Notes under the pieces: model-generated
Seen by the model: the letters and a program-made list of their open reading frames with translations, nothing else
What the model was told of the DNA's origin: nothing
The model's database searches: none
Assembly: GCF_009659535.1 (NCBI RefSeq)
Contig: NZ_VJZZ01000001.1
Coordinates: 1 to 64,000, forward strand
Direction: 5' to 3'
DNA length: 64,000 nucleotides
Source of the DNA: Aggregicoccus sp. 17bor-14
GTDB taxonomy: Bacteria; Myxococcota; Myxococcia; Myxococcales; Myxococcaceae
Position numbers and translations under genes: made by a program
Part shown: in pieces, positions 3,945 through 21,387 of the stretch
How positions within the stretch are numbered: position 1 is the first letter of the stretch
Layout of the letters: every line of letters starts with the position of its first letter

Positions 3945-4569
3945 GGGACACCTCCGCCATCAGCTCGCCACCCACCAGCTCCGCCGTGGGCTTGAGGGAC
4001 TCCTCGTCGATGCCCTGGCGAGCCGCCACGGCCGCGGGCACCATCGCGGTGAGCTTCACCCCGAAGGCGCTCTCCACGGCGGACTGCACCTCTTCCACCG
4101 CCTTGCGCGAGGCGGCCCAGATCTGCAGCTGCTGCGTCTTCAGGTTCCAGCTCAGGTCGTGGACCTTGGTGCCGGGCACGGCGCGGTTGCGCAGCATCTG
4201 GCGCAGGGAGTCGCGGTTGGAGGCCTTCTCGGCGCGGCTGGGCGGCCGGTCGTGCTCCTTCTCGAAGGCGGCGGCCCACTTGGCCAGCTCCGCCTTGAGC
4301 GCGGCCGCCGGGACCTTGATGCGGTCCACGCGGTAGCCGATCAGCGCGTACTCGCCATAGAGGAAGCTGCCGGGGGAGAACTCCGTGGAGTCGGAGTTCT
4401 CGAGCTCGACGAAGCCCGCGGACGTCTCGTCCTCGGACTTGCGATCGATGGGCTCGAAGGCGTGCGCCTTCAGGCCGCGGCTGAGCCACTTCTTGACGTC
4501 GGAGGGAGCGTCTTCCGCGGGTTCAGCACGGAAGCGCGAGAAGGTGACGGCACCACGCAGGACGGGCAT
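3937..4569 (-). CDS. RdgC-like protein, N-terminal half (recombination-associated)
   Basis: A protein of about 210 residues matching the N-terminal part of RdgC: MPVLRGAVTFSRFRAE at the start, GSFLYGEYALIGYRVDRIKVP followed by a long charged helix with SNRDSLRQMLRNRAVP, then VHDLSWNLKTQQLQIWAAS and KAVEEVQSAVESAFG. In E. coli RdgC the same order (VIKQALEAKI, a charged helix, LLPRAFSRF, then a strand-helix unit) forms the first half. The start was placed at the Met preceding PVLRGAVTF by analogy with RdgC; longer frames begin at 4584 and 4632. It is followed with eight bases of overlap by a gene encoding the rest of the protein. A role in limiting RecA during recombination is inferred. Confidence 0.68.
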   Translation of the reverse strand: MPVLRGAVTFSRFRAEPAEDAPSDVKKWLSRGLKAHAFEPIDRKSEDETSAGFVELENSDSTEFSPGSFLYGEYALIGYRVDRIKVPAAALKAELAKWAAAFEKEHDRPPSRAEKASNRDSLRQMLRNRAVPGTKVHDLSWNLKTQQLQIWAASRKAVEEVQSAVESAFGVKLTAMVPAAVAARQGIDEESLKPTAELVGGELMAEVSHG

Positions 4570-4637
4570 GAGGCCGCGCAACATCGATGTAGCAGCGCGT
4601 CCCGTCAAGATTCCCGCACGGGGCCGCTCCATGCGCG

Positions 4638-4680: not shown

Positions 4681-7600
4681 CTACTTCTTGCCCGTTCCAC
4701 CCTCTTCGGAGGACTCGCTGCGCGGCGGCGCCGCGGGCTCCTGGCGCACGGCGTCGGAGCCCTCGAGGGTGGCGCGCCGCTCGCGGGGCTGCAGCTGGTT
4801 GCGCAGCAGCCCGCTGGCGTCAGGAACCGGCATGCGCGGCGGAGAGGCGCGGTCCAGCTCGAAGAACGGCGCCGTGCTCGCCCCCTGCGCAGGAGGCGGC
4901 GTGGCGGAGTCCGCGAGCTCCGGCTGCGGCTCGGGGCGGGTGCGGCGCAGCCAGGGCGGCAGCAGGAGGCTCAGCGCGGCGAGCGGGGTGAAGCTCTCGC
5001 GCAGCCAGCCTCCCTTCTGCCGCTCGTACAGCTTGCGCATCTCCAGCGCGGCGCGCTTGTGGGAAACGCGGCCCTCTACGAGGTCCTTCATCAGCATCTG
5101 CGCGAGCCGGCGTCGGTCCACGCTGTCCACGTAGTCGAGCACCTTCTCCAGGCTGGCGGTGAGCCGCTCCGAGCGTGTGTCCGCGCGGGTGTGCTGCAGC
5201 GCCGCGAGCTTCGCCTCGTGCGTGGCGCGGGCCCGGTCGGCGAGCTGCTGCAGCATCTCCGCCTCCTCGGCGCTCATCGCCTCGCTCGCGAGCGCGGGCA
5301 GCACCCGGCGCGCGAGCCCCGAGTCGATGAGGCCCGGGTCCTCGAAGCCCTCCAGGGCCTCCAGGGCGCGGCGGCGCACGTCCGGCGCGCCGAGGCGGAA
5401 GGACTCCAGCGCGCTCTTCACGCGGTCCAGGGCGATCCAGCGGTACACCCAGTCCAGGCCGGTGCCCTTGATGTTCTGGGCTCCCATGATGCTCACCTGC
5501 AGGCCCGGCGCGACCGCGCGGGCGCAGGCGTCGATCACCTGGTCGCCGGTGGCGTGCGAGTCCGGCACGGGCACCAGCTGCTCCATGAAGAGCGCCTTGT
5601 AGGCCGCGCGGAACTGGCTGCGGAACTGCTTCACCTCGCCCGCGGGATCGCTCGCACCGGGGCGGGGCAGGGCGGCGCGAAGCCGCGCGTGCACCACCAG
5701 GCGCGCGAGCAGGTAGAGCGCGTGCGTGCGCACCTCCTCCCCGGTGGCCTGCGCGAGCACCTCGGGCAGCTTCGGATCCTCGGGCTGCGGCTCCGCCTCG
5801 AGGCAGCGCTCGAGGAGCGGGCCCACGCTCGAGGCGAGCGCCTCGCGCACCGCGCCCACCGCCACGGTGTCGCCCGCGTCCACGAGGGCGGAGGTGACCG
5901 CGGCCTGCAGCTCGGCGCTGGGCGTGAGGCGCAGCCCCGCGCCGCGGGCGTAGAGCGCCACGCGCTCGAGGAAGAGGTCCACGGAGGGGCGCGGGATCTT
6001 CAGCCGCGCCATCGCCTGCGCGAGGCGCTGCTCGGGGTGCGGCGCACCCTCGGCGGGCGCGCCCCTCAGGTCATCCGTGCTCACCACCTCGACGCGGTCG
6101 AGGTATCCCCCGAGCGCGTCGCGGACGAACTTCTGCAGACCCTCGAGGTTCGTGCCGATGAGCACGTGCCGGTCTGCCGGCGCATCCTCGACCATGATGC
6201 GGGCGAAGACCTCGGAGCGGGAGACGCGGTCCCAGCGGTTGTTGATGACGGTGAGCACCGCGCGCTCGGGATGGCGCTCCGGGTCCACCGCGTCCAGGCC
6301 GGTGCGGATCCAGTTGTTGAGGAAGCCGGTGCGCTCGTTGGCCGAGTGGCCGTTGATGAAGGTGAGCGTGCGGCCGCGCACGCGCGCGGAGGGGAACACC
6401 TTGAGCACGCCGATCTCCGGCTGCACGTGCTCGGCCATCAGCGCGAGGGCGCGCGTGCGCGGCACCCCGAGCTGCTCGGCCACCGTGGCCACCAGCGCCA
6501 TGTTGCGCGGGTGCTCGCGGTAGGGGAACAGGGCGAGCAGCTCCTCGGGGATGAGCTCGGCCTCGTACGCCTTGCTGTGCACGAGGGTGGTGTCCTTCGC
6601 GCGCGCGGTCTCCTCGAAGAGCGGCAGGAAGTGATCCTCGCTCGTCACCACCTTGCCGCCCTCGGGCATGAACTGGCTGATGACGGAGGCCACGTTGATG
6701 CCGGCGGGGCCCTGGATGTCCTCGTGGTCCGGGTACGCGTTGGTCAGCGTGGCCAGGTCGTCCTTCATCCAGTCGTTCTGCAGCAGGTCCACGAAGTTGG
6801 GCTGCAGCGCCATGCACTCCCAGAGGAAGACCTCGGTGCCGAGCTTCGCGCCCAGCTCGAGCATGTCGCGCTGCTCCCAGATGGTCGCCTTGTCGTAGGG
6901 GCGGAAGATGAAGAACTCGGAGGGCGCGGCGCCCGGTGCCGAGTGCACGAACATGGCCTCGGAGCCGGTGGTCTTGGCGAACACGTCGAAGCCCAGGCCG
7001 CTGAAGAGCGCTGCCTTGAGGCGCTCGGTGCCGGACTTGCCGCGGGTGCCCCAGCCGCCGATGCACAGCGGGATGCTCTCGCGGGTGCGGCGCACGCCCT
7101 GGCGCTGCACGAAGGCGTGCACCAGGAACACCGTGAAGATCGCCGCGGTGAACAGCGCGAGCGCGAGCAGGCCGTTGCCGCTGGTGCCGCGAAAGTAGCT
7201 GTCGTTCTCGAGCAGCCGGTTGCCCAGCTCGGCGATCCAGCCCGTGTCCACGAGCGCGAGGCCCGAGAGCAGCGCACCGGTGGCTGCGGCTCCGCCGGAG
7301 GCGCCTGCGCCCGGGTCGGTGCCGAACAGGGTCTCGAGCGGACGCGGCGTGGGAATCTCGTTGCGGTACGGCGTGAAGCTCACCCGCAGGCCGAGCTCGC
7401 GCTCCAGCGTCTCCACGTAGCGGCGGCGGTCGCGCGGCTCGCTGCCGTTGAGCGAGGCGAGGCGCAGCTGCGCGAACTGCTCGTACTCGCGCGTGATGCG
7501 CAGGCGGTTGCGCAGCCGCTGGCCCAGCGAGGCGGGCGGGGCGACGGTGGTGGTGCCGTGGCTGCTGAACAGCCGCACCTCCTGGGCGGAGCCCAGGGGC

Positions 7601-9342
7601 AGGTCCAGCAGATCGTCCACGGTGGGCAAGTGGCGGCCCCAGCTGCCCTCGGTGGCCACGTGCACGCGCTCGCCGGGGACCAGGGTCTGGGTGATCTCGT
7701 CCAGGTGGCCGGGGTGTGCGCGCAGCGGGCCCGGGATGACGCGGCCCACGGTGTGCTGGAAGGCCTGGCGCTTGTTGGGCGCGGGCCGGCGCAGCTCGTG
7801 CCACACGCGCCAGGCGCGGCGGGCGAAGCGGTCCCCGCGCCACAGGCGAAGCAGGTGTCCCTCGCGCTGCGCGTAGAGGCCCTGGCCCGCGTAGGACAGG
7901 TCCGCGAGGATGGCGCCCAGCCAGGCGTCCTGCTCGGGCAGCGGAGGCAGCCCCTCGGGGGCCGGGTCGATCTCGATGCGCGTGGTGCCGCCCACCGGCA
8001 GCTCCGCGGCCACGCGCGCGAGGTAGCGCGTCCACGCCCGGCGCGCCCCGTCCTGCTGGCGCTGCAGCACCTGCGCGGCGGCCGCAGCCGCCTCGAGCAC
8101 GGGCCCCGCGAGGCCCTCGCGCGAGAGCACCCCGTCCAGCGCCTCGCTCAGGGTGGCGAGGCCCGGCAGCTCCGCCACCGCGCCCGCCAGCTCACCCACC
8201 TGCTCGCAGGCGATGCGCAGCGGCAGCGGGTCCACCTCGCGGCGCAGCACCTCGGCGAGCAGCGTGCTCAGGGCGCTGCGGCGCTCGGGCGCCTGCGCTC
8301 CGGGCTCACGGAGCGCGGCAATGGCCACGAGCACGGCGCTCGCCCGCACGCGGGGGCTCGGCTCCGGGGACTCCGCGTCCAGGCCGGCCCGCTGCGCGAG
8401 GAGGCGCACGCCCTGCGGCAGCGCGAGCACCAGGTTGCACAGCCCCATGCGCACGTACTCGCTCGGGTCCGCGCGGCCCACGTTCACCAGCAGGGCGTGC
8501 AGCTCCTCGGGGGGCAGCAGCGGCGCGAGCAGCTCCAGCGCCTCGCGGCGGAAGAGGAAGTCGCGCCCGGCGGCGAAGGGCGCCTGCAGCCGCTGGCGCA
8601 TGAGCACGCGCCCGCCCTCGGGCTCCACCCGCAGCAGCACGCGCAGGGCCTCGGCGCGCAGGAAGGGGCTCGCGGAATGCTGCTCCACGAGCGCGATGAG
8701 CGCAGGCCCCGGCTCCTGGAGGCCCTGTGCCACCCCGGGGTGCGCCTCCACCAGCGCGCGCAGGGCCTGCACCGCGGCGAGCTGGTTCTGGGGCCGCGGA
8801 CTGCGGCTCGCCAGCTCCAGCAGCGCGCGCGCGAGCGGGGCGCCCACGCTGGGGCTCAGCCGGGTCTCCACCTCGCCCGTGCGCAAAAGGCCTCCCAGAC
8901 AGAGGAGCGCGGTCTCCTCCTCGAGCTGCAGCGACTGGCGCTGGCGCTCGAGGCGCTCGCGCAGGGCATCGAAGCCGAGCCAGCGGTGCAGGGCGCGCAG
9001 GTCCTTGCGGCGCTCGGCGGCGTCCTCCACCGTCTCCTCGAGGTGGGCCACGAGCACCGCGCGGCGGGCGGCGGCGTCCGGTGCCTCGTTGTAGCGGCGG
9101 GTGAGCTGGGCGATCGCCGCCTCCACCTCCTTCACCTCCGCCTCCAGGTCTCCCAGCGCCTCGTACAGCAGGGTGGTGGGCGTGGGGCGCAGGCCCGAGG
9201 GCTTGAGGCTGGCCTGCAGCGAGAGGCGCTCGGCGAGCTCCTGCGCGAGCGGCGCGCGCACCTTGCGGTGCAGGGGCGGCAGGACGCGCAGCAGCAGGCT
9301 TCCGAGCTCACCTGCGGGCGCTTCGTCAGAGGGCGAAGACAT
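4681..9342 (-). CDS. capB: Giant CapB/PgsB-type amide ligase with helical scaffold
   Basis: A 1553-residue protein containing a complete CapB/PgsB (Mur-ligase-like poly-gamma-glutamate synthase) core. A membrane helix (about 724-744) is followed by the P-loop GTRGKSG (K769), KTTGSEA (790-796), the LWECMALQPNF acidic motif, a TNAYPDHEDIQGP segment equivalent to VNVLEDHMDVMGP of Bacillus PgsB, the FINGHSANERTG motif (H999) and, after an insertion, GAQNIKGTG (about 1288). PgsB is about 390 residues; here about 720 residues of helical, HEAT-like sequence precede the core, a helical insertion of about 150 residues divides it, and a charged helical tail of about 250 residues follows. CapB activates the polymer carboxylate with ATP and adds the next amino acid. 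This is the last gene of the operon, 122 bases after the barrel protein. The start at 9342 (MSSPSDEAPA) was preferred over 9399. It is a single uninterrupted frame. Confidence 0.85.
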   Translation of the reverse strand: MSSPSDEAPAGELGSLLLRVLPPLHRKVRAPLAQELAERLSLQASLKPSGLRPTPTTLLYEALGDLEAEVKEVEAAIAQLTRRYNEAPDAAARRAVLVAHLEETVEDAAERRKDLRALHRWLGFDALRERLERQRQSLQLEEETALLCLGGLLRTGEVETRLSPSVGAPLARALLELASRSPRPQNQLAAVQALRALVEAHPGVAQGLQEPGPALIALVEQHSASPFLRAEALRVLLRVEPEGGRVLMRQRLQAPFAAGRDFLFRREALELLAPLLPPEELHALLVNVGRADPSEYVRMGLCNLVLALPQGVRLLAQRAGLDAESPEPSPRVRASAVLVAIAALREPGAQAPERRSALSTLLAEVLRREVDPLPLRIACEQVGELAGAVAELPGLATLSEALDGVLSREGLAGPVLEAAAAAAQVLQRQQDGARRAWTRYLARVAAELPVGGTTRIEIDPAPEGLPPLPEQDAWLGAILADLSYAGQGLYAQREGHLLRLWRGDRFARRAWRVWHELRRPAPNKRQAFQHTVGRVIPGPLRAHPGHLDEITQTLVPGERVHVATEGSWGRHLPTVDDLLDLPLGSAQEVRLFSSHGTTTVAPPASLGQRLRNRLRITREYEQFAQLRLASLNGSEPRDRRRYVETLERELGLRVSFTPYRNEIPTPRPLETLFGTDPGAGASGGAAATGALLSGLALVDTGWIAELGNRLLENDSYFRGTSGNGLLALALFTAAIFTVFLVHAFVQRQGVRRTRESIPLCIGGWGTRGKSGTERLKAALFSGLGFDVFAKTTGSEAMFVHSAPGAAPSEFFIFRPYDKATIWEQRDMLELGAKLGTEVFLWECMALQPNFVDLLQNDWMKDDLATLTNAYPDHEDIQGPAGINVASVISQFMPEGGKVVTSEDHFLPLFEETARAKDTTLVHSKAYEAELIPEELLALFPYREHPRNMALVATVAEQLGVPRTRALALMAEHVQPEIGVLKVFPSARVRGRTLTFINGHSANERTGFLNNWIRTGLDAVDPERHPERAVLTVINNRWDRVSRSEVFARIMVEDAPADRHVLIGTNLEGLQKFVRDALGGYLDRVEVVSTDDLRGAPAEGAPHPEQRLAQAMARLKIPRPSVDLFLERVALYARGAGLRLTPSAELQAAVTSALVDAGDTVAVGAVREALASSVGPLLERCLEAEPQPEDPKLPEVLAQATGEEVRTHALYLLARLVVHARLRAALPRPGASDPAGEVKQFRSQFRAAYKALFMEQLVPVPDSHATGDQVIDACARAVAPGLQVSIMGAQNIKGTGLDWVYRWIALDRVKSALESFRLGAPDVRRRALEALEGFEDPGLIDSGLARRVLPALASEAMSAEEAEMLQQLADRARATHEAKLAALQHTRADTRSERLTASLEKVLDYVDSVDRRRLAQMLMKDLVEGRVSHKRAALEMRKLYERQKGGWLRESFTPLAALSLLLPPWLRRTRPEPQPELADSATPPPAQGASTAPFFELDRASPPRMPVPDASGLLRNQLQPRERRATLEGSDAVRQEPAAPPRSESSEEGGTGKK

Positions 9343-9464
9343 GGCGAGAGAATCCTGAGTCGGCTCGGGACGGAATCGCATCGGTGGGAGGGTGCGCACG
9401 GCGCCCCGGCGCTGCTGGGCAGCGGCCGGGAGGCCGGGCGCGGAGCGTTCGACGTTCGACAGCG

Positions 9465-12400
9465 CTAGTCGGTGGGACGTCGGGGAGCGAGCAGCTTCTC
9501 GAACTCCTCCTCGTACGGAGTCACATCGCGCAGGCCGCGGCCGCCGGTCCAGTCCCAGCGCAGGCCCACGGACACCTGGTTCTGCAGCCCGAAGGGACCG
9601 GAGTAGAGCGCCCGGTCCTCGGCGAAGACGAGCAGGCGGCCGTCGCGGCCCTTCCAGAAGCCCCAGTCCAGGCCCGCGAGGGCGCCGTGGCGCAGGTACT
9701 GCTCGCGGCGGTGGGTGTCCTCCATGCGCAGCGAGGCGTCGTAGGCGAGCGTGGCGCGCGCCTGGCTGCGCGGGCCGAAGAGCAGCGCCGACCAGCGCAG
9801 CTGCGAGTTGAGGCTGTCCGCCGTGCGCAGATCCGCGTTGCTCACCGCCCAGGTGCTCAGGGTGCCCACGTGATCCTGCAGGGGCTGCCAGCGCAGCGAG
9901 AGGCGCGGGGTGAGCCGGCGCGGGTGCTCGCGCCCGAAGAGCCAGGAGACGTTGCGATCATAGTCGGACGCCGGCGGCCCGCCCTCGCCGCCCCCTTGCG
10001 TCTCCAGGGTGAAGCCGAGGCCCGGGATCAGCGCGAAGTCCGTGCTCAGCCGCACCCAGCGGTCGAGGCCGACGCGTCCCTGCACGCGGTAGCGCAGCAC
10101 CTGCTCGAGGCGCTGGCCGTACGCCGCGCCCGACAGCTGCAGGCGCAGCTGCCCCGGCAGCTGCTTCACGTAGAGGGAGGAGCGCGCCCCCAGCACCGGC
10201 CCGCCCTCGGTGGGCAGGCGCAGCTCGGGCGTGAGCCGCAGCCACACGCGGTCCTCCGCCAGCTCCTGGCGCCAGCCCAGCTGCAGCTCGAGCCCCGTGC
10301 GCAGCGGGCGGTTGAGCTGGTCGCCGTCCTCCACGTTCTCCTGGCGGGCGGCGACCTCGGCGCTGAGCATGCCAAGGCTGCGCGCGGCGCCGAGGCTGGG
10401 GCCGCTGTCCGGCAGCAGGCTGAGGGCCTGCGGGTTCGCCGGCCAGGGCAGCGGCTCGGCGGTGGGGTCCGCGGCGCTGAAGCGCTCCATGCGCTGGGTC
10501 TCGGGCGCGTGCGCCACGCCCGTGTCCACGTGCAGGAGCACCTCGCCCTCGGTCGACTCGAAGCGGACCTGGTGCGGCCCGCGCTCGGGCAGCAGCAGCA
10601 GCGTCTCGCCCTCCGAGCCCACCGGCTCGGAGATGCCGGACACCCGGGTGTCCAGCTCCGCGGGCAGGCCGAGCCGCTGCGGTTGCACCGCGGCGCCTCC
10701 CGAGCCGCCGCTGGCGGACGCGACCGGCGTGCTCTGCAGGAGCAGCTCGCGCCCCGGCTGCGGGGACACCGCGCGCGCCGAGACGCGCAGCGCGGTGGGG
10801 CCCAGCACCGTCATGACCACGGGCTGGCCGGGGCGGCTGCGCAGCAGCGAGAGGGGCTGCTGCGCCTGCAGCGCCTGCGCCCCGTCGTCCGAGGCGCCCG
10901 CCTGGCCGAGCGCGACGAAGCGCACGGCGGCCTGGCGGCCCTCGCCGTTCTGCGCGAGCAGCAGCTCGAGCTGGTGGCGGCCCGGGGCGCTCAGCGGCGC
11001 GGCGAGCAGCGCCGCGCCGCCCGGCTGCACCTCCTGCTTCAGCGCCGTGGCGCCATCCACCCGCAGGGTGAAGGTGCAGGGCGAGGGCTCGGCGTCGTCA
11101 CCCGCGTCGAGGGTGGCCGGGCTGCACTGCACCTGGGCGCCGAGGCGCTGGGCGCCGGCCGTCTCCAGGTCCAGCACGCTCGCGCGGCCCGCGCTGAGCA
11201 GGCGCGCCTCCTCGAGCGGCCAGGGCGGGGCGAGCAGCGCCTTGCGCACCAGCTCCGCGCGCTCCTGGGGGGCGCCGCGCTGCAGCGCCTCGAGGTGGCC
11301 CGCCGCCTGCTCCGCGTCGCGCAGGCGCTCCCAGCGCGTCCAGCGGCCGGCCGTGGTGCGCATGCGGCGCACCAGCGGGAGGTCCGCCCACTCGCCCAGC
11401 TGCACGGCGATGGCAGAGCCCAGCGGGGCGCCGCCTTCCGCCCAGGTCCTCGAGGTGGGCTGCAGCTGATCCAGCAGCGCGAGCGCCTCGAGCCCCACCT
11501 GCGGGCGGCCCGTCTCGCGGTACAGCTGGACGAGGGAGAGGGCGGCCGCGTCCGGCTCGCCGGCGCGCGCCTGCAGCCGCGCGCGCACGTAGCGCTCGGC
11601 CGGCGTGGCCCCGCTCTGGGGCAGCGCGAGCGCGGCCTTCGCACCGCGCTCGCGCGCGGTCGTCAGCAGCGCGCGCACCGGCGCGGACTGGGCACCCTCG
11701 AGTGCCGGGAAGGCCGGGGCGAGCAGGGTGGGCGTGGAGGCCGGCTGCGCGAGGCGCACCTCGCTGCGGTCCCCCTCCGCCATGGCGATGAGGTGGTTGA
11801 GCTGGGTGGCCTGCGCCGACGTGAGCGGCTCCTGCAGGCGCGTCACCCGGCCGAGGTCCGCGCGCGCGAGCCCCTCCTCACCGAGCGCGAGCAACAGCTC
11901 GGCGCGGGCGAGGAGGAAGCGGGCGGAGCGCGGCTGGTTCGAGACCTGGCGCGAGAGCGCGAGCAGCTGCTCCACGGGCCGCTCCGGCGCGGCCGCGGCG
12001 AGCGCGGGGGCAGCAGAGGGGGCTTCATCGCTGGGCAGGTCGCGGCGCACGGCGAGCGAGGCGGCCACGTCCGCGGAGCCCTTCTCCAGCTCCAGCCACA
12101 CCTCGCGGGTGAGCGGCGGCAGCATCACCACGGCGGCGGCCGCGGCAGGCGAGGGGCGCGCCGAGCCGTCCAGCGCGAGGTGCTGCGCGTTGGCGGCGGC
12201 CGGGTAGAGCACGAGCCGGCGCGTGGGGCCCACGTCCGTGTGCAGCGTCACGCGCACCGGCCCGCCCGAGGCCGAGGGCGCGCGCAGCTGCAGGCGCACG
12301 GGGGTGGGCAGCTGGGGATCCGGAATGCGGAAGCGCAGGGCTCCGGCGCCTGCGCGCAGCGGCCAGCCCGTGCGCACGTAGGCCACGTCCGCCGCCGCGG

Positions 12401-14507
12401 TGCCGCTCTGGGGCGCGAGCGAGAGGAAGGCGCGTGTCGCGGGCGGACCCTCGAGCCGCAGCGCGTGTGCGCCTGCGGGAAGGGCGAGCTCCACCGGCTC
12501 CACCGGGTCCACGCCGGCGAGCGGCAGGCTCGTCGCGCCCACGCGCAGGGCGAGCGGCGCGGAGACGTCCTTCGTCCCGGCCGCCGGCGGCACCACGAAG
12601 GCGCGCAGCAGCGTCTGGGCGCCCGCGCTGGGCGCGCTGTTCACGGACACGTCCTGGCCGGGGCTCAGCGCCCAGAGGGCACCGGACTCGGCGCGGGCGG
12701 AGTCCTGGGGCGGCTGGATGTCCAGCCACTGCTGCGCCGAGGCGGTGGCCGCGCTCGAGGGCGACACGAGGTTCCAGCGGCTCTCCTGCCACCAGGCCGC
12801 GAGGTAGCGGCGGCGGATCTCCGAGGAGAGGGGCTCCTTGCGCCACGCGAGCTCGAGCGCCGCGAGGCCGCGGCTGCGCAGTGGGTCACCGAGCGGCAGG
12901 CGCGCCACCAGCTCCGCCGCCTGCGCCGCCACCCAGCCGGACTCCGGGAAGGCGGGCGCCGCGGCGAGCACCGCGTGCGCCTGGGCCGCATGGTGCGTGT
13001 CCAGCAGCAGGCGCGCGAGGCGCAGGCGCAGGTCCCACCCGAGGGCATCCGCGGGCAGGGCGCGCGCGCCCAGCTCGCGCGCCGCCTCGAGCGCGAGGGC
13101 CGCGCGCCGCTCCGGCGCGCCCGCCGCCTCGGCTGCGTGCACGCGCGAGAGCACCTGCAGCGGGAGCGGCAGGCCCCGCAGCCCGGGCGGCGTGCCGGCC
13201 GGATACGCGTCGGGCAGCAGCGCGCCCAGCTCCTGGCGCAGCAGCGCGGCGGGCGCCGAGGGGTCGCTCTTCACGGCCTCCCACGCCGTCTGGGCGTAGG
13301 ACTCCCAGGTGGCCGAGTGGGAGAGCACCTCGCGCAGCTCGGGACGGCGCTGGGCGACGCGCGCGCGCAAGAGCAGCGCTCCGCCCTGCCAGGCCACCCG
13401 GTAGCGGTGACGGCCCGGGGAGAGCACCACCCGCAGCTCCTCCTGCACCCCCAGCTGCTCGCCGGAGGCGAGCGTGCGCGCCCGGCGCTCTGCAGGCAGC
13501 GCGGCATCCTCGGCGTCGGCGAGCGCGGCGCGCGGCGCGAGCGTGGCCTGGCCCAGCACCCGGCCCGCTGCGTCACTGCCCTCGCGCACCTCGAGCGCGC
13601 GCGACTGCGCGCTGCCCGTGCCCAGCAGCGCCCGGCCCTGCAGCTGCAGCACCCCGGGGCCCTCCAGCTCCACGCTCCACTCGCCCTGCGGCTGGGGCAG
13701 CCGCGCGTACTCGCGCTGCGTGCCCTCCACGTCCACCGCCGCACCCGGCGGGTGCAGCTCGCTCAGGCGCAGCGCCGGCGAGGGCTGCAGCGGCTCCTCG
13801 AGGGACCAGGCGCGCAGCGCCGCCGCCTTGCGCCAGGCGGCCACCGCCGCGTCCAGGCCGTGCGCGGAGCCGCTCGCCCCGCGCAGCGCCTCGCCGAGCT
13901 GGGCATCGCGCTCCAGCTGCGCGCGCAGGCCCGCGCGGAAGGCGAGGGCAGGGGCCGGGGCGCGGCCGTCGAGCCACGCGAGCAGCGCGGCGCGCGTGGG
14001 CTCTCCGCCCAGCACGCCCTCGCTCAGCGCGGGGCGCTCGAGGCGCAGGCGGGTGGGGCGGCTCGCCGTCACCACCCACACGCTGCCCGCCCCGACCGGC
14101 TCCGTGAGGTACCAGAGGCCCGGGCGCGCCGGCACCGCGCGCTCCTCCAGCTGCAGGCTGGGGGCGTCCGCGCCGGCCTCCGCAGGCACGCGCACGAAGC
14201 GCAGTCCCGCGCCCCCGGAACCCTCCTCCACCACCCGCGCCACCTCGAGCGCGCTGAGCCACAGAGCGGCGCCCTGCTCGGGGCCGACCTCGACGGTGCC
14301 GCGCACCTCGCGCGCACTCGCGGGAACCCGCGGGTCCACGCTGCGCACGGTCTCGGGCCGCACGCCCACGCGAACCGGCTGCGGCTCCCAGGTCAGCCCC
14401 TCGGCCCACGCCTCACGAGGCGGCGAGGCCGGGGACGCCGCGGCGGCGTCGAGGGAGAGCAGCGCGCTCGCCGCGAGGGCAAGCCATGTGAAGCGTCGCG
14501 ACGACAT
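9465..14507 (-). CDS. Putative outer-membrane polymer exporter: beta domains, TPR, barrel
   Basis: A 1680-residue secreted protein with a clear signal peptide (WLALAASALLSLDAAAA). The first 450 residues look beta-rich. TPR-like helical repeats follow at about 460-560 (ALALEAARELGARAL, LLLDTHHAAQAHAVLAAAP), 855-920 (ARAELLLALGEEGLARADL) and 960-1020 (RARLQARAGEPDAAALSL), with beta-sandwich-like stretches between. The last 300 residues or so have the alternating aromatic and charged pattern of an outer-membrane beta-barrel (LRWSALLFGPRSQARATLAYDA style strands, QNQVSVGLRWDWTGG near the end). TPR plus C-terminal barrel is the architecture of BcsC, PgaA and AlgK/AlgE-type polysaccharide exporters. 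It sits between the hydrolase-like gene (6 bp upstream) and capB, so I infer it carries the CapB/CapC product across the outer membrane. No single family was recognised. Confidence 0.7.
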   Translation of the reverse strand: MSSRRFTWLALAASALLSLDAAAASPASPPREAWAEGLTWEPQPVRVGVRPETVRSVDPRVPASAREVRGTVEVGPEQGAALWLSALEVARVVEEGSGGAGLRFVRVPAEAGADAPSLQLEERAVPARPGLWYLTEPVGAGSVWVVTASRPTRLRLERPALSEGVLGGEPTRAALLAWLDGRAPAPALAFRAGLRAQLERDAQLGEALRGASGSAHGLDAAVAAWRKAAALRAWSLEEPLQPSPALRLSELHPPGAAVDVEGTQREYARLPQPQGEWSVELEGPGVLQLQGRALLGTGSAQSRALEVREGSDAAGRVLGQATLAPRAALADAEDAALPAERRARTLASGEQLGVQEELRVVLSPGRHRYRVAWQGGALLLRARVAQRRPELREVLSHSATWESYAQTAWEAVKSDPSAPAALLRQELGALLPDAYPAGTPPGLRGLPLPLQVLSRVHAAEAAGAPERRAALALEAARELGARALPADALGWDLRLRLARLLLDTHHAAQAHAVLAAAPAFPESGWVAAQAAELVARLPLGDPLRSRGLAALELAWRKEPLSSEIRRRYLAAWWQESRWNLVSPSSAATASAQQWLDIQPPQDSARAESGALWALSPGQDVSVNSAPSAGAQTLLRAFVVPPAAGTKDVSAPLALRVGATSLPLAGVDPVEPVELALPAGAHALRLEGPPATRAFLSLAPQSGTAAADVAYVRTGWPLRAGAGALRFRIPDPQLPTPVRLQLRAPSASGGPVRVTLHTDVGPTRRLVLYPAAANAQHLALDGSARPSPAAAAAVVMLPPLTREVWLELEKGSADVAASLAVRRDLPSDEAPSAAPALAAAAPERPVEQLLALSRQVSNQPRSARFLLARAELLLALGEEGLARADLGRVTRLQEPLTSAQATQLNHLIAMAEGDRSEVRLAQPASTPTLLAPAFPALEGAQSAPVRALLTTARERGAKAALALPQSGATPAERYVRARLQARAGEPDAAALSLVQLYRETGRPQVGLEALALLDQLQPTSRTWAEGGAPLGSAIAVQLGEWADLPLVRRMRTTAGRWTRWERLRDAEQAAGHLEALQRGAPQERAELVRKALLAPPWPLEEARLLSAGRASVLDLETAGAQRLGAQVQCSPATLDAGDDAEPSPCTFTLRVDGATALKQEVQPGGAALLAAPLSAPGRHQLELLLAQNGEGRQAAVRFVALGQAGASDDGAQALQAQQPLSLLRSRPGQPVVMTVLGPTALRVSARAVSPQPGRELLLQSTPVASASGGSGGAAVQPQRLGLPAELDTRVSGISEPVGSEGETLLLLPERGPHQVRFESTEGEVLLHVDTGVAHAPETQRMERFSAADPTAEPLPWPANPQALSLLPDSGPSLGAARSLGMLSAEVAARQENVEDGDQLNRPLRTGLELQLGWRQELAEDRVWLRLTPELRLPTEGGPVLGARSSLYVKQLPGQLRLQLSGAAYGQRLEQVLRYRVQGRVGLDRWVRLSTDFALIPGLGFTLETQGGGEGGPPASDYDRNVSWLFGREHPRRLTPRLSLRWQPLQDHVGTLSTWAVSNADLRTADSLNSQLRWSALLFGPRSQARATLAYDASLRMEDTHRREQYLRHGALAGLDWGFWKGRDGRLLVFAEDRALYSGPFGLQNQVSVGLRWDWTGGRGLRDVTPYEEEFEKLLAPRRPTD

Positions 14508-14513
14508 GAGGGG

Positions 14514-15533
14514 TCAGTCCTCCGAAGGAGCCAGGAGCGCGGTGGCCATGAAGGCCGCCTGGTCCTGAGTGGAGAGCGCGCGGCGAGAGCTCGCCGACAG
14601 CTCGAGGTGGATGAAGCGCGCGCCGGGGTAGGCCTGCAGCAGCCGCGCCTGGACGTTCTGGGTGCCTCCGAGCATCTGCGTCTCGTCGGGGTACACGCGC
14701 ACCCCGCTGCCCAGCAGCGGCCCCAGGCGCAGCGCCACCTGGCGCACCCAGGGCGAGCGCACGCGCGAGCCGGGGCTCACCACGGCCGCCACGCCGGTGC
14801 GCTCGGGCAGATCCGCCTTGCCGAAGCCGTGCACCTGCACCACGCGCAGCCTCGGGAGGTTGCGCGCGAGCAGGTCCGTCACGTGCTGGAAGAGGTGCTC
14901 GGGGTTGTGGGCCACGTCCGCCGGGTGCTCCGCGTCCGTGCGCTTCTCTCCCGGGTGCGAGCGGTAGCGGTGGGCGGTGTTGGTCATGAAGGCGCGCGGC
15001 CGGTGGCCCTCCGGCGCGCAGGCGAAGAGCGTGAGGGCGAGCGGGCCCGTGCCCACGTCGAAGTAGGCGTGCGGCGCCTGCACCACGTCGTCCGTGGCGG
15101 GCCCGGTGCGCAGCACGTAGGCCCCGGCGCCGTGGCGGCGGGCCACCTGCTCGCGCAGCACCCACAGGGTGTCGTCCCCGCGCGTCCAGGTGAGCAGCTC
15201 GAAGCCCACCGACTGCGCGAGCTTCACCAGCGGCGCGGGCACGGGCTGCTTCGTGCGCGCGGCCGCCAGGAGCGCAGGGACGAGCTGGGTGAAGGCGAGC
15301 CGCTCCTCCAGCGTGGTGGGGCGAAAGCTCACCTGGTCCGGCTCGGGCCACAGCGCCTTCGCCCAGTCGGCGGGAAGGCACTGCGCGAGCGGCTTCGAGG
15401 GCACGAGCATCTGGGCTCCGTTCATCTTCGTGGCGCGCGGCGGAGGCGCCGTCCCGGCGAGCGCGGGGGCGGCGAGCAGCCCGGCCGCGAGCGCGGGCGC
15501 CATGGGGCCGGCGAGCGAGCGCCGCCGCCTCAC
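14514..15533 (-). CDS. Secreted PghP-like putative zinc gamma-glutamyl hydrolase
   Basis: A 339-residue protein with a signal peptide (residues 1-27). Key motifs in order: QAPHAYFDVGTG (H155, D159), MTNTAHRY (H188), VVQVHGFGK (H235), VVSPGSR, LGGTQNVQARLL and FIHLELSASSRRAL (E311). This order resembles, from memory, the phage poly-gamma-glutamate hydrolase PghP (PHGGGIE, a T-x-H, SFHG, then QLEIS followed by RR), a carboxypeptidase-like zinc enzyme. The lipoprotein encoded upstream of capC is a clear paralogue. GTG start with GGAGGAGG upstream; the start overlaps the stop of the preceding gene (GTGA), and the barrel gene starts 6 bp after the stop. Inferred role: trimming, release or length control of the polymer in the periplasm. 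The metal and substrate are untested, but all ligand-type residues are intact here. Confidence 0.68.
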   Translation of the reverse strand: MRRRRSLAGPMAPALAAGLLAAPALAGTAPPPRATKMNGAQMLVPSKPLAQCLPADWAKALWPEPDQVSFRPTTLEERLAFTQLVPALLAAARTKQPVPAPLVKLAQSVGFELLTWTRGDDTLWVLREQVARRHGAGAYVLRTGPATDDVVQAPHAYFDVGTGPLALTLFACAPEGHRPRAFMTNTAHRYRSHPGEKRTDAEHPADVAHNPEHLFQHVTDLLARNLPRLRVVQVHGFGKADLPERTGVAAVVSPGSRVRSPWVRQVALRLGPLLGSGVRVYPDETQMLGGTQNVQARLLQAYPGARFIHLELSASSRRALSTQDQAAFMATALLAPSED

Positions 15534-18163
15534 GGCCCCTCCTCCGGCTCCCAGCCGCCGCGGTTCCACTGCTGGGGCACCTCGTCCAGCGCGTCCTCGC
15601 CGTAGACGAAGAAGCGCGCCCAGGCGGGGCCGAGGCCCTGCGCCTTCAGGCTCACCCAGTGCACGCCCGGGGCGAGGTCCTCCCCCAGGGTGACGGGGAC
15701 GGTGCGCGCGTGCCAGTGCACCTCGGGCTGGCCGCGCGGGAAGGCCGCGGGCTTGTCGGAGGCGGGCAGGGCGAGCTCGCGCTGGGCGCGGGTGAGGCGC
15801 GGTAGCAGCTGTCCGGTGCGCCGGCGCGGCGCGCCCCCGTCCAGGCTCACCCGCAGCCGGGGCGCGCTGCTCGCGGCGCGGCTCTGGGTGTAGAGCACCA
15901 TGTTGAGGGTGACGGCGCCCCGCCCGCGCTTCACCACGGGGATGCGCAGCCCCCCGTCCGCGAGCCGGTACACGGTGCGCGTGCGCAGCCCGCCCTCGCC
16001 CTCGCCGCCCGCAGGGGGACGGTTGAGCAGCGCGCTCAGGCCCTGGGCGCTCGAGCGCAGGAGCACCTCGTGGACGCCGGGAGGGATGGGGGGCAGGAGC
16101 TCGCGCGAGCGCGTGGCGTGCAGCACCGCGCGGTGCAGGGGCGCACCATCCAGCAGCACCTCCACCTCGCTGCCCAGCGCGGCCGCGTCCTCCAGCCGCA
16201 GCTGCAGCTCGGGGCGCGTGGGCACGCGCGAGTCGAAGTGGGCGCGCACGGCGCCGCGCTCCGGGGAGAGCAGCGTGAAGGCTGCCTTCGCGGCGTCCTG
16301 CCCGCGCGCATCCGGGTCCACCGGCTCCAGCAGCTCCTGGGTGGGCGGCGCGCCCTCGGGCGCGAGCGTGAGGGGCACCCCGGAGGTGACGTGCGTGGGC
16401 TCGGGCACGATGGGCTCGAGGCCCACCTGGCTGACCAGCTGCACCTCGGCGCCCTGCGCGGCGAGGGCGCGGTGGTTGAAGGGGCGCAGCGGATACCAGC
16501 TGCGCTCCTCGAGCGGAGCGTGGCGCCAGCGCACGTCGACGAGCGTCTCGTCGGAGTAGGGCGCCGAGGCGCTGGGCCCCTCCTTCGCCTGCAGGAAGCT
16601 GTAGAGGTTGAGCGCGGTCGGGTGCGAGGCCTGGATGCGCACGCGGCGGGTCCCGGTGGGGAGGACGAGCCGCGCGCTGGCGGGGCGCGACACGCGCGCG
16701 GCCTGCTCGGCCACCCGCATGCCCTGCGCCTCCTCGCTGCCGCCCACGCCCTGCTCGCAGGGCAGCAGCCCCTGCGCGAGCGGCGGCAGGTTCACCTGCT
16801 CGAGCTCGGCGCCCTCGGCGCCCACGTCCATCCGGGCCTCGCTCAGCGAGCGGCCCCGCGCATCGAGCATCGTCAGGGTCACGCTGCTGGGGCCCGCGCC
16901 GAGCGAGCGCGCATCCAGGCGCAGGAGGCGCGCGGCGGCGTCGCCGTCCGCCTCCACGGCGAGCTCGTAGGCCTGGCAGCCCGGGCCCGCCACGTAGCTC
17001 TCGACCCGGCGCGTGTCCGGCAGGTACGCGATGCGCGCGCCCGCGGCTGCCGCTCCCACGGCGCCCTTGAGCGGCTCGGGGGCGAGCCACGCCTCGCGCG
17101 GGCCCTCGATGGCGTAGCGCAGGTCACCTGCGGCGCCGTTGGCGAGGGTGAGGGTGTGGATGCCCTCGGGCAGCTCCACCTCGGTGGTGCTCAGGTCCCC
17201 CGCGGCAGGGGCCGCGAGCTTGCGCGCCTGGGCATGCCCGTCCGCGCCCAGCGTGCTCAGCTCCACCGCGTCCGGCACGGGCGCGGTGGCCTGCGGCGAG
17301 ACGCTCCAGAGGCGCACCAGCAGCCGGGTGGGGCCCTTCACGTTCACGGCCACGGCGCGGTGCGCATCGAGCCGCTCCTGCGCGGACTCGGCCACCTCCA
17401 GCAGCGGGAGGCGGAACGCGGTGCGGTACACCGGCTCGGTGCGGTAGTCCTGACCCTCCTCGCCGTCCGCGCCCACGCGCAGCCACTGCGCCTCGGTGAG
17501 CGCGCGCTGGGTGGTGGGCGTGAGCTTCGCCCAGGGCTCGAAGGTGACGCGCTCGGCGCGAGTCTCGGCGCGGGCGACGGCGCGCGCCTTGCCCGAGATG
17601 GACAGCGGCATCGCGGCCTGGCCGCGCGCGTACACGCGCACCAGCAGCGCGCCGCGGGTGCCCGGGTAGCGCAGCTCCAGAGTGGAGGAGCCGGAGCCCG
17701 GAGGGAGGGTGAGGGGGAGCTCGCGCCCGTCGGTGAGCTGCACGCCGGGGTCCGCGGTGAAGGCGCTCTCCTGCATCCACAGCCCGTCCACCGGCTGCGC
17801 CTTGCTCTGGCGCGTGCGGGTGAAGAGCCGGCGCGCGAGCAGCGGCTGGCCCTGCGCGCCGGCGCCGAGCAGCCGCAGGTCCACGCCGTACACGTACTGG
17901 TTCTCGGGGGCGTAGGTCTCCCCGGGCGGCAGGACGAGGTGGGTCATGATCCGCAGCGCCTGTGCATCCGTGGGCAGCGGGATGCGCAGCGAGGTGCCCG
18001 GCTCGAGGCGGTAGAACACGAGCCGCTCCGCGTCCGCGTACTTCGCGTCGCGCGCCACGGTGGGCGAGTTGGCGTTCCAGAGCACGCCGGCGCTCGCGGC
18101 CCACACCAGGCCGAGGCTCAGCAGGAGGCCCACGAGGGCGCTGACGCGAGTCGTCCGCTTCAC
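15530..18163 (-). CDS. Large periplasmic beta-rich protein of the CapB/CapC operon
   Basis: An 877-residue protein with an N-terminal signal or anchor segment (MKRTTRVSALVGLLLSLGLVWA), then almost entirely beta-rich sequence with recurring strand-turn signatures such as LPEGIHTLTLANG, PPGVHEVLLRSS and LAPGVHWVSLKAQG, suggesting several immunoglobulin-like or jelly-roll modules in series. There are no catalytic motifs I recognise. The start overlaps the capC stop by four bases (ATGA), and its own stop overlaps the hydrolase-like gene (GTGA). In Bacillus the third subunit of the synthase is CapA/PgsA; no CapA-like protein exists here and this one shows no similarity to it, but its position makes it a candidate periplasmic scaffold linking the inner-membrane synthase to the outer-membrane barrel. 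The function is unknown. Confidence 0.75.
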   Translation of the reverse strand: MKRTTRVSALVGLLLSLGLVWAASAGVLWNANSPTVARDAKYADAERLVFYRLEPGTSLRIPLPTDAQALRIMTHLVLPPGETYAPENQYVYGVDLRLLGAGAQGQPLLARRLFTRTRQSKAQPVDGLWMQESAFTADPGVQLTDGRELPLTLPPGSGSSTLELRYPGTRGALLVRVYARGQAAMPLSISGKARAVARAETRAERVTFEPWAKLTPTTQRALTEAQWLRVGADGEEGQDYRTEPVYRTAFRLPLLEVAESAQERLDAHRAVAVNVKGPTRLLVRLWSVSPQATAPVPDAVELSTLGADGHAQARKLAAPAAGDLSTTEVELPEGIHTLTLANGAAGDLRYAIEGPREAWLAPEPLKGAVGAAAAGARIAYLPDTRRVESYVAGPGCQAYELAVEADGDAAARLLRLDARSLGAGPSSVTLTMLDARGRSLSEARMDVGAEGAELEQVNLPPLAQGLLPCEQGVGGSEEAQGMRVAEQAARVSRPASARLVLPTGTRRVRIQASHPTALNLYSFLQAKEGPSASAPYSDETLVDVRWRHAPLEERSWYPLRPFNHRALAAQGAEVQLVSQVGLEPIVPEPTHVTSGVPLTLAPEGAPPTQELLEPVDPDARGQDAAKAAFTLLSPERGAVRAHFDSRVPTRPELQLRLEDAAALGSEVEVLLDGAPLHRAVLHATRSRELLPPIPPGVHEVLLRSSAQGLSALLNRPPAGGEGEGGLRTRTVYRLADGGLRIPVVKRGRGAVTLNMVLYTQSRAASSAPRLRVSLDGGAPRRRTGQLLPRLTRAQRELALPASDKPAAFPRGQPEVHWHARTVPVTLGEDLAPGVHWVSLKAQGLGPAWARFFVYGEDALDEVPQQWNRGGWEPEEGP

Positions 18164-21100
18164 GGGCGCACCTCCTTGCTACGACCGGCAGCCGGGGCGG
18201 GCAGCTCCGCGGCGACGAGGAGGGGACTGCGCTGGCGCAGGGCGCGCTCGCCGGCCTCCCGCACCTCGGGGCTCCCGGGGGTCAGCTCCACCCGTGGCAG
18301 GGGCGACAGCTCCTCCTGCAGGAAGTACACGCCGCGCAGGAGCCGGCGGCCCTGGCGCGCCTCCAGCAGCAGGTAGGGCAGGCCCTGCTCGCGGCTCCAC
18401 GCCACCTCCACCCGCTCGGCGACGCCCGCGCGGGTGCGCGCGTGGGCGAGCGCCCGCAGATCGTGGATGTTCTGCTGACGCAGGCGCCGCTCGGCGGCCG
18501 CCGCCAGCTGCTCGAAGTGCTCGCGCAGCACCGGGGGCACCGCGCCGCTCAGCGGCTGCAGGCCCGGGGTGAGCAGGCTCTCGAGGGGCGGTCGCGAGTC
18601 GGTGGGCAGCGGCCCGAAGCCCGCGAGCGCGAGCTGCTCGGGCGTGGTGCGCGGGCCCACGTAGGCGCCGCGCAGGTGCTCGGAGAGCCACAGGGTGGCG
18701 AAGGGCGCACCGCCGAAGGTGCTGGAGAAGGCCTGCTGGGGGCTCGAGTCGCTGAGGCCCGCGAGCTCCGGAGAGCCGTCGTGGTAGCGCACCAGCGGCT
18801 TCATCCAGCCCAGGGGCCCGGAGGGCGCGAGCAGCGCCTCGAGCGCGCGGGGCCGCTGCGCGGCGCTGAGCACCGGGCCGTCGAGCTCCACCAGCACGTC
18901 CGCCGCCACGGCGGGCCGCGAGGAGAAGCCGCGCACCTGCAGCGTCAGGCCGCCCTCCGCCGGTAGGCTGCGGTGCAGCGCCTGGTGGAAGGCCTGGAAG
19001 GCCGTGCGGTAGTTGCCCGGGCTCGCCGCATCCGCCGCATCCGCGAGCAGCAGCGCGCGCCCCTGGTCCGCCGACCACACCTCGAGCGCCACCGGCAGGC
19101 TGCCGGCGTCACGGCCCACGGTCGGAGCCTCGACGGCGAGCGGCGCGCCGCCCGCGCGCACCAGCAGCGCCGCACCCAGCCGGCCCCGGGCACCCTCGGC
19201 GTCCGTCACCAGCCAGCAGCGCCCGTCGGGCGTGCCGCAGCCCTGCACGGGCCTCACCTGGAGCTCCATCAGCGAGGCCATGAGCGTGGCCCAGCGCAGC
19301 TCGTCCTCGCGGGCAGCGGACTCCGCCGGGGCGCCCGCGCCCGGCGTGGCCGCGGCGAGCAGCGGCGCGGCCACCTGGCGCTCCAGCACCGCGAGCTCCG
19401 CCTCGGAGGGAGCGGGCGCAGGCGCGGCGCCGGGCGCAGCGGGCGGCTGCGCGGGCGCAGAGAGCGTGGCGAGCAGGGCGTCCGGGGCGAGCGAAGGGCC
19501 CAGGCCGCCCGCGCGCGCGAGCACCGCGGCTCGCAGGGTGCGCGGGTGGGCGCGCAGCACGCTCACGCGCCCCTCCTCCCAGGCGAGGCCCGGCTCGGGC
19601 GGCGCCTCGGAGGTGACGTGGGCGCCGGGCCACAGCGCCCCGGGCGCGGGCTGGGCAGCGCGCGCCTGGTGCAGGCGCACCTCCCCCTCGGGGAGCGCGG
19701 CGTCCGCGCGGACGAGGATGCGCGGGTGGGCGTCCAGCGCGCCGTGCGCGCGCAAGAGCGGCGTCTGCTCCTCGAGCAGCGCATCGCCCTGGCGCAGGCC
19801 GGCGGCGCGCGTGTCCACCCCGCTCACCAGGAGCACGCGGCACTGGACGCGCTCGCAGAGCACGGCGGCCGCCTCGGCGCTGGGGGCCTCGCTCGAGGGG
19901 CGCGGCACCTCGAGCACCGGCCCCGGGGCGCCGGGCACCAGCACCGCGGTGTCCCAGCCCAGGCGCCCGCCCAGCCGCTCGCGCTCGGCGAGCACGAAGC
20001 GGGGGCGCGCGCCGGGCGCCTCGGCCGCGAGCGGACGCAGGTCCAGGCCCAGGCGCAGGGCCTCCTGCTGCACCGCGGCCTGCTCCTCGGCGCTCCCGGT
20101 CTCCAGCCAGCGGTCCACGTGGCGCCAGAGCACCGAGTAGCGGCGCAGCTCGTTGCGGCGGCGGCGCAGCGGGGCGTCGCCGCCCTCGTTCTCCCGCGCC
20201 GTCACCCGCGCGAGCGCCATGGCGCCCATGGGGGTGTGCGAGAGCCCCAGGGTGGGGGCCTCGGCGCGCGCATCCTCGGGCGTCGCGACGGCGGTGTGGG
20301 GCTCGATGAGCGAGAGGCCGAAGCCGATGAGGCTGCCCAGCAGGAAGCCCGCGAGCGAGGTGTGCAGGCTGGGCAGCACGATGCGCGCCACCACCTGCTT
20401 CTGGAGGATCTTCACCGCGAGCAGCGTGGGCACCAGGTAGCCGAAGCCGAAGAGGTCGGTCACCTTCAGCCCGGGCACGCGCCCGCCCAGCGCCCAGCCG
20501 ATGCAGAACTTGAGGACGAAGCCGAGCGTGAAGACGAGCACCGTCTTGCGCGGGCCCTCCAGGTTCGCGGTGCGCAGGCCGGGCAGGGTGAGCACCGCGC
20601 GGGTGCCCAGCACCAGCAGCAGGACCTCGGCCACGGTGGCCAGCAGCTTGCCCGGAGACAGCCAGGTGAGGGCGAGCAGCGCCGGCACGAGGATGCCGTT
20701 GAAGTCCCAGCCGTAGAGCAGGTTGAAGCGCGCCGCGAGCAGCGCCGTCACCAGCAGGATGATGTAGGCCTTGGGGCTCGCGAGGAAGCTGCGCGCGATG
20801 TCCTCGTACACCAGCTCCAGGCTGCCGAAGGACAGGTTGGTGCCCGGCAGCAGCACCCAGCGCAGCACCGCGTAGGTGAGGAACACGGGCACGCCCACCT
20901 GCAGCAGGCCGCGGCGCAGCTTCAGCTTCCAGAAGGCATTCGCCGTGAGCGGCACCAGCACGAGGCCGATGCTGTGCAGGCTGCGGTCGAGCACGAAGGT
21001 GGTGTCGAAGCGGGCGTCCAGCCAGTGGCCCACGTAGGGCAGCAGCCACGCCTCGCTCACCGCGCGCACGAGCACGCTGGCGAGCACCACGAGGAAGAAG

Positions 21101-21387
21101 CGGTCGCGGCCGAAGAAGGCGCTCCACGCACCCGTGCGGCTCACGCCTGCGGACAGCAGCACCGCGAGCCCGTAGGTGAGCAGCGCCTCCACGGCGACCG
21201 TGGCGCCCGCCTCCGGGTTGATGACGAAGATCGAGGCCAGGTAGCCGGGGACGACGAGGCCCACGAATACCCACCCCAGCGTCTCCGTGAGCAGCGCCAG
21301 GATCAGCACGCCCACGAGCACCGCGACGAGGATCGAGGTATCGAGGCTGTACGGCGGGAAGAGTGTCAGCGTCGACAAGAGAGCCAT
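18160..21387 (-). CDS. capC: CapC/PgsC-type synthase subunit, doubled, with periplasmic region
   Basis: A 1075-residue protein. Residues 12-365 are membrane-embedded and contain two CapC-like units: the first with LGWVFVGLVVPGYLASIFV, the second with YGWDFNGILVPALLALTWL followed by FGFGYLVPTLLAVKILQKQ. Bacillus PgsC is one unit of about 150 residues (TGIVPAGLVVPGYLGLVF). CapC is the membrane partner of CapB in making and moving the polymer. Residues about 370-1075 are soluble and probably extracytoplasmic. Two segments there (about 460-530 and 720-830) follow the pattern of the PghP-like enzyme of this operon but lack its histidines: EVPRPSSE and EAPTVGRDAGS replace QAPHAYFDVGT, and LQVRGFSS replaces VQVHGFGK. 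This is the first gene of the operon. No strong Shine-Dalgarno was seen at the ATG. Confidence 0.82.
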   Translation of the reverse strand: MALLSTLTLFPPYSLDTSILVAVLVGVLILALLTETLGWVFVGLVVPGYLASIFVINPEAGATVAVEALLTYGLAVLLSAGVSRTGAWSAFFGRDRFFLVVLASVLVRAVSEAWLLPYVGHWLDARFDTTFVLDRSLHSIGLVLVPLTANAFWKLKLRRGLLQVGVPVFLTYAVLRWVLLPGTNLSFGSLELVYEDIARSFLASPKAYIILLVTALLAARFNLLYGWDFNGILVPALLALTWLSPGKLLATVAEVLLLVLGTRAVLTLPGLRTANLEGPRKTVLVFTLGFVLKFCIGWALGGRVPGLKVTDLFGFGYLVPTLLAVKILQKQVVARIVLPSLHTSLAGFLLGSLIGFGLSLIEPHTAVATPEDARAEAPTLGLSHTPMGAMALARVTARENEGGDAPLRRRRNELRRYSVLWRHVDRWLETGSAEEQAAVQQEALRLGLDLRPLAAEAPGARPRFVLAERERLGGRLGWDTAVLVPGAPGPVLEVPRPSSEAPSAEAAAVLCERVQCRVLLVSGVDTRAAGLRQGDALLEEQTPLLRAHGALDAHPRILVRADAALPEGEVRLHQARAAQPAPGALWPGAHVTSEAPPEPGLAWEEGRVSVLRAHPRTLRAAVLARAGGLGPSLAPDALLATLSAPAQPPAAPGAAPAPAPSEAELAVLERQVAAPLLAAATPGAGAPAESAAREDELRWATLMASLMELQVRPVQGCGTPDGRCWLVTDAEGARGRLGAALLVRAGGAPLAVEAPTVGRDAGSLPVALEVWSADQGRALLLADAADAASPGNYRTAFQAFHQALHRSLPAEGGLTLQVRGFSSRPAVAADVLVELDGPVLSAAQRPRALEALLAPSGPLGWMKPLVRYHDGSPELAGLSDSSPQQAFSSTFGGAPFATLWLSEHLRGAYVGPRTTPEQLALAGFGPLPTDSRPPLESLLTPGLQPLSGAVPPVLREHFEQLAAAAERRLRQQNIHDLRALAHARTRAGVAERVEVAWSREQGLPYLLLEARQGRRLLRGVYFLQEELSPLPRVELTPGSPEVREAGERALRQRSPLLVAAELPAPAAGRSKEVRP

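Follow-up and report, generated by a model that had tools for sequence, protein, structure and literature searches.

The gene at positions 9465 to 14507 of the window (the whole stretch of 64,000 nucleotides analysed in this study) encodes T, a large outer-membrane pore protein from a family not described before; in many unrelated Gram-negative bacteria its gene adjoins genes that resemble those of polyglutamate synthase. In the window, T comes fourth in a compact operon on the minus strand, C-N-E-T-B, and it is quite likely to serve as the outer-membrane exporter of a five-gene system for the synthesis and secretion of a polyglutamate-like polyamide. By analogy, the best reading is that this system would work in the manner of the BcsC, PgaA and PelB systems yet belong to none of them. 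The operon and the gene upstream of it are arranged as follows.

21594..22727, minus strand: lipoprotein paralogue of E, upstream of the operon and kept in Myxococcaceae (orthology, profile; lipobox LAAC read by eye)
18160..21387, minus strand: C, CapC/PgsC-like membrane protein of 1075 aa with a long C-terminal extension (Pfam Caps_synth_CapC, E=1.1e-40)
18637..19422, minus strand: degenerate E-like domain in the C extension, residues ~656-917 (hhalign against the E family, E=5.9e-7)
15530..18163, minus strand: N (N877), secreted multi-beta-sandwich protein of 877 aa (orthology, profile comparisons)
14514..15503, minus strand: E, secreted PghP-like putative polyglutamate hydrolase (motifs, hhalign; start placed by eye at MAPALAAG)
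9465..14507, minus strand: T, candidate outer-membrane exporter of 1680 aa with an ATG start (orthology, models, profile match)
4681..9399, minus strand: B, enlarged PgsB/CapB-like ligase of 1572 aa, with the PgsB core at 6121-7146 (TIGR04012 match)

The T gene is confirmed as coding and real, because 19 Myxococcaceae orthologues (47-52% identity over nearly the full length) keep the same gene order and a profile of 23 T proteins from outside Myxococcota matches T (E=2e-40) and no other ORF in any of the six reading frames of the window. A chance ORF on the wrong strand was considered, as a 2073-aa plus-strand ORF overlaps T, and was ruled out by this cross-phylum homology in the minus frame. 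The reading frame, 1680 aa on the minus strand and opening with ATG, was as stated. The original prediction had recognised no family in it, and neither Pfam nor NCBIfam holds any model for T. At E<=1, matches to these two collections were entirely lacking for T, N and E. Window N, which overlaps C by 4 bases, and window E were matched by independent profiles (E=1.4e-30 and E=2.4e-42, respectively).

Judged from their sequences, the neighbours of T, a PgsB/CapB-like ligase, a CapC/PgsC-like protein and a PghP-like hydrolase, suggest that the polymer consists of amino acids. B matches the PgsB model TIGR04012 (E=3.8e-62) at 210.2 bits, under the cut-off of 222.7, and has a PgsB-like core with a conserved P-loop. 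C scores 139 bits against Caps_synth_CapC, well above the Pfam cut-off of 27, and 52.9 bits against the NCBIfam PgsC equivalog TIGR04011, under the cut-off of 96.45. Because both proteins lie below their NCBIfam equivalog cut-offs, the polymer may not be gamma-glutamate, and diverged PgsB/PgsC-like enzymes could instead supply T with another polyamide or a modified polymer for export (a polymer built from a different amino acid, a copolymer containing glutamate, or a glycan decorated with peptides). The ~740 extra N-terminal residues of B and the remoteness of the similarity between E and PghP would also suit such a product, but it is considered unlikely, given that the P-loop and core of PgsB are conserved in B, that the CapC match of C is so far above its Pfam threshold and that the PghP motif order is kept in E. 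The additional residues of B lie ahead of the PgsB core, are partly conserved across phyla and have no Pfam assignment.

PghP is a zinc gamma-polyglutamate hydrolase and kin of carboxypeptidase A (PMC4497714). E of the window has a secretion signal, read by eye. Across the E family, PH, D, H, E and R residues are invariant, and the motifs run in register with those of PghP (PH..E/D, HG, N, (H/Q)LE, R). The similarity is remote (hhalign E=3e-4, probability 40%), and the PghP model PF05908 finds only one of 29 E family members at E=0.013 and none at the Pfam cut-off; a distant homology of E to PghP is probable but unproven. Two Myxococcaceae genomes (G115 and G138; loci L139 and L140) have a genuine PF05908 polyglutamate hydrolase, on contigs other than that of the operon. 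As the histidine motifs of the E family are absent from the E-like domain of the C extension, this domain looks like a dead hydrolase-like module, possibly one that binds polymer.

CapA/PgsA (PF09587) was not found anywhere in the window genome (99.95% complete), which means that the usual third subunit of polyglutamate synthase is missing and that N, E and T stand in its place in the operon. Compared with the Gram-positive and ordinary PgsBCA/CapBCA polyglutamate synthases (PMC3815933; PMC5542703), the likeness lies in the CapC/PgsC-like C and the PgsB/CapB-like B, while B is much larger (~1570 vs ~400 aa), C carries the E-like extension, and the T operon has no CapA and does have an outer-membrane component. 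CapA was observed within 3 kb of B on contig C9 of genome G053. A short protein adjoining the operon of the window (3937-4632, minus strand) gave a partial match to RdgC (PF04381, E=7e-10, about 140 residues).

T does not stand alone: it belongs to an operon family found in several phyla. All six genes (the E paralogue and C-N-E-T-B) occur in one shared order in Myxococcaceae. A scan for enlarged B returned 304 relatives, with 79 loci kept, and C-N-E-T-B recurs in Myxococcota, Gammaproteobacteria, Desulfobacterota and Nitrospirota. Cultured bacteria bearing the operon, or part of it on the contig, include Halomonas, Vreelandella, Marinobacter, Zhongshania, Methylovulum and Desulfocicer, as well as Polyangium, Nannocystis, Plesiocystis and Enhygromyxa. 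The operon, whole or in part, was also found in MAGs assigned to Nitrospirae, Nitrosomonas, Blastocatellia, Planctomycetia, Poribacteria and Wallbacteria, of which single MAGs may be mis-binned.

A profile of the T barrel finds a match at 62 of the 67 loci whose upstream DNA is long enough; since most of these loci built the profile, it is the Myxococcaceae-only and non-Myxococcota T profiles that provide non-circular tests. The former matches 35 loci, including those of Desulfocicer, Methylovulum and a Nitrospirae MAG. Five of the 67 loci encode an enlarged B without a detectable T (L097, L099, L108 = Sorangium cellulosum; L135; L138), a point against the export reading. At one of them, L097, an unassigned 1312-aa ORF lies upstream of B. 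Across 189 Myxococcota genomes, T profile matches at E<1e-80 were confined to genomes with an enlarged PgsB (Myxococcaceae and G053), and none of the 15 Myxococcota genomes whose PgsB is above the TIGR04012 cut-off (including loci L034-L039) has a T match. At locus L032, which represents a more distant class, B is enlarged and T has diverged (E=1.8e-4).

The domain plan of T was taken from two AlphaFold2 models built from homologue alignments (residues 1-1100 and 1041-1680), with the domain types read from the secondary-structure strings of the models. The features, from the N-terminus onwards, are listed below.

14436..14507, minus strand: signal peptide, residues ~1-24 (sequence reading: RR, hydrophobic core, AAA; residues 1-29 disordered in the model)
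14025..14399, minus strand: beta-sandwich 1, residues 37-161 (AlphaFold2 model)
13797..14006, minus strand: helical block, residues 168-237 (AlphaFold2 model)
13347..13772, minus strand: beta-sandwich 2, residues 246-387, related to N877 623-706 (model and profile-profile comparison)
12783..13337, minus strand: TPR-like alpha-solenoid, residues 391-575 (AlphaFold2 model)
12039..12782, minus strand: beta-sandwiches, residues 576-823 (AlphaFold2 model)
11232..11981, minus strand: TPR-like alpha-solenoid, residues 843-1092 (both AlphaFold2 models)
10512..11204, minus strand: beta-sandwich region beside the barrel, residues ~1102-1332, related to N877 261-532 (model and profile-profile comparison)
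9549..10370, minus strand: 14-strand transmembrane beta-barrel, residues ~1380-1653 (AlphaFold2 model, fold search, strand amphipathicity)
9501..9542, minus strand: conserved C-terminal motif GRGLRDxxPxExxF, residues 1656-1669, after the last strand (T alignment)

The model of the periplasmic region (residues 1-1100) has a pLDDT of 84.9 and a pTM of 0.83. That of residues 1041-1680 has a mean pLDDT of 85.7 and a pTM of 0.60, with a disordered linker between the sandwich region and the barrel, and this low pTM makes it uncertain how the barrel and the sandwich domain are placed with respect to each other. The original prediction of a signal peptide, of beta-sandwiches like those of the 877-residue neighbour and of TPR blocks was borne out in its first two parts and partly in the third. 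The signal peptide, MSSRRFTWLALAASALLSLDAAAA, was read by eye at the N-terminus. Profile-profile comparison aligned T ~1100-1340 with N877 261-532 (E=4.6e-7) and T 262-375 with N877 623-706 (E=1.7e-5). The TPR blocks appear in the model as alpha-solenoids at residues 391-575 and 843-1092, but window T matches no TPR family in Pfam or NCBIfam, so that no label stronger than "TPR-like" is justified for them. One T homologue (L085) matches TPR_14 at E=5e-4, just below the curated cut-off.

Candidate identities from other folds were rejected. An ordinary TPR protein, or a pilus- or usher-like one, is set aside by the lack of any family match and by a fold search that returns porin-type barrels. 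The top fold-search matches of residues 1-1100, Cry toxins and BIRC6, had a TM of about 0.1 and an rmsd near 30, and hence reflect strings of sandwiches and solenoids rather than kinship. A match of the sandwich region to SsfX3 (E=0.005) was too weak.

The original prediction had placed a barrel at the C-terminus, proposing a check of the last 300 residues and counting a model without a transmembrane barrel as grounds for giving it up. The T model does contain one, with 14 long strands in the last 300 residues (pLDDT mostly >90), each of the 14 having one hydrophobic and one polar face. The last strand of window T ends VGLRWDW, a sequence that fits the usual barrel-assembly signal. In a Foldseek comparison with the PDB, the best-ranked barrel was OmpG (TM 0.6 by target length), with OprD, AlgE, PgaA and PelBC behind it; the matches to PgaA, PelB and AlgE were weaker. 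OmpG is a 14-strand monomeric porin and the closest solved barrel to that of T, but it shares only about 10% identity with T and has neither a periplasmic arm nor a link to a polymer synthase.

Slam, too, is built from TPR repeats and a barrel of 14 strands. A role of T on proteins or lipids, as a Slam-like or two-partner-secretion-like assembly factor linked only indirectly to the synthase, would agree with this plan, with the presence of FhaC among the fold-search matches of the T barrel and with a very weak TPR_Slam match in one T homologue (E=0.48). Such a role nevertheless seems very improbable, as T has no sequence match to Slam or FhaC, the operon encodes no candidate protein cargo, and T co-occurs with a polymer synthase.

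Export of a polymer remains the preferred reading, and the composition of the pore is consistent with it. On the pore face of the barrel the mean number of charged residues is 30.4, against 6.7 on the lipid face. Because the faces were assigned by hydrophobicity, this contrast is partly built in, but that does not apply to the sign of the net charge. The pore face of window T has 21 K/R and 11 D/E, a net charge of +10. Among 50 homologues it is positive in 40, with a mean of +4.4. The basic pore that the original prediction had offered as a check was thus found in window T and its relatives, clearly so in Myxococcota, but it is weak elsewhere (mean about +2, negative in several). The checks made here of the original prediction, on barrel, pore charge and family profiles, all favoured it. 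Four basic pore positions are mostly R/K among homologues (R1413, 82%; R1430, 92%; R1606, 72%; R1624, 86%). With 23 residues, the longest loop in the model joins strands 7 and 8. Three conserved positions, D1517, 1524 (mostly Y) and H1528, lie in or beside it, which makes it the best candidate for a gate.

It had also been predicted that T does not belong to the BcsC, PgaA or PelB families, and this was upheld. The BcsC barrel model BCSC_C (PF05420) was absent from T and from the genome at E<=10, as was PgaA_barrel (PF21197) from the genome at E<=10, the E. coli control being positive in both cases, and no NCBIfam exporter model matched. Alginate_exp (PF13372) was not found at T and had no credible match in the genome, and the T model has 14 strands rather than 18. 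PelB had no Pfam or NCBIfam match in T; PelBC is a weak fold match, and T is set apart from PelB by 14 vs 16 strands. A known exporter overlooked by annotation was rejected on the zero matches of PF21197, PF05420 and PF13372 at T.

The plan of T nonetheless resembles that of BcsC, PgaA and PelB, with a signal peptide, a long periplasmic alpha/alpha-repeat arm and a C-terminal barrel in one chain, encoded beside an inner-membrane synthase and a putative periplasmic polymer-cutting enzyme (PMC9384988; PMC12141448). According to the models and the gene linkage, the operon combines an outer-membrane barrel and a periplasmic alpha/alpha-repeat domain with a synthase. It differs from those three systems in that T lacks a sequence match to them and has 14 predicted strands instead of 16, its arm alternates solenoids with several beta-sandwiches, and the synthase is PgsB/PgsC-like rather than a glycosyltransferase. 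Known synthase-dependent exporters have 16 or 18 barrel strands (PMC12141448). The AlgE barrel, which appears in the T fold search, exports an anionic polymer (PMC9384988), but it has 18 strands, with the repeats in a separate protein, AlgK, whereas T is one chain (two ORFs in some methanotrophs). In three methanotroph loci T is split into adjacent ORFs for an N-terminal part of ~1060-1120 aa and a barrel of ~716-736 aa (L107, 4620-9956; L110, 4256-9759; L115, 4130-9690).

The absence of credible PgaA_barrel, BCSC_C or Alginate_exp matches in the genome also bears on whether T merely holds the polymer. T is mostly beta-sandwich, a common binding fold, and polyglutamate of Gram-positive bacteria can be cell-attached (PMC4497714), so that the barrel and periplasmic arms might act as a surface anchor or receptor that keeps the polymer on the envelope while another pore exports it. 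With no credible match to these three models in the genome, no second outer-membrane barrel in the operon and T co-inherited with the synthase, an anchoring role appears decidedly unlikely.

If T is the exporter, B and C would be responsible for polymerising the chain and for its passage through the inner membrane, and N together with the sandwich/solenoid arm of T may guide it through the periplasm. E would trim or clear the polymer, as AlgL does for alginate or BcsZ for cellulose. The chain would then leave through the 14-strand barrel of T, with its net basic pore face and conserved arginines, and gating may fall to the 23-residue strand 7-8 loop. This scheme parallels AlgE/AlgK/AlgL, PgaA/PgaB and BcsC/BcsZ (PMC9384988).

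In the polyglutamate capsule model on which genome surveys rely, CapB and CapC are the sole required components and no outer-membrane one is listed (PMC5542703), and Fusobacterium is listed as the demonstrated Gram-negative polyglutamate producer (PMC3815933). No published outer-membrane exporter of polyglutamate was found in the open-access journal literature searched. Genes for PgsB/CapB and CapC are widespread in Gram-negative genomes, and T with its conserved partners offers a concrete exporter candidate, probably the missing exit gate for a secreted amino-acid polymer in such bacteria. On balance we favour the view that T founds an undescribed class of exporter, marked by a 14-strand barrel, a sandwich/solenoid arm and a non-glycan polyamide as substrate, within a five-gene system that spans Gram-negative phyla and has dead hydrolase-like domains on its inner-membrane subunit. 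If true, this would mean that the synthase-dependent plan, known for polysaccharides, also serves polyamides, by means of a barrel family without sequence match to the known ones, and C-N-E-T-B would serve as a five-gene marker for spotting such producers in genomes.
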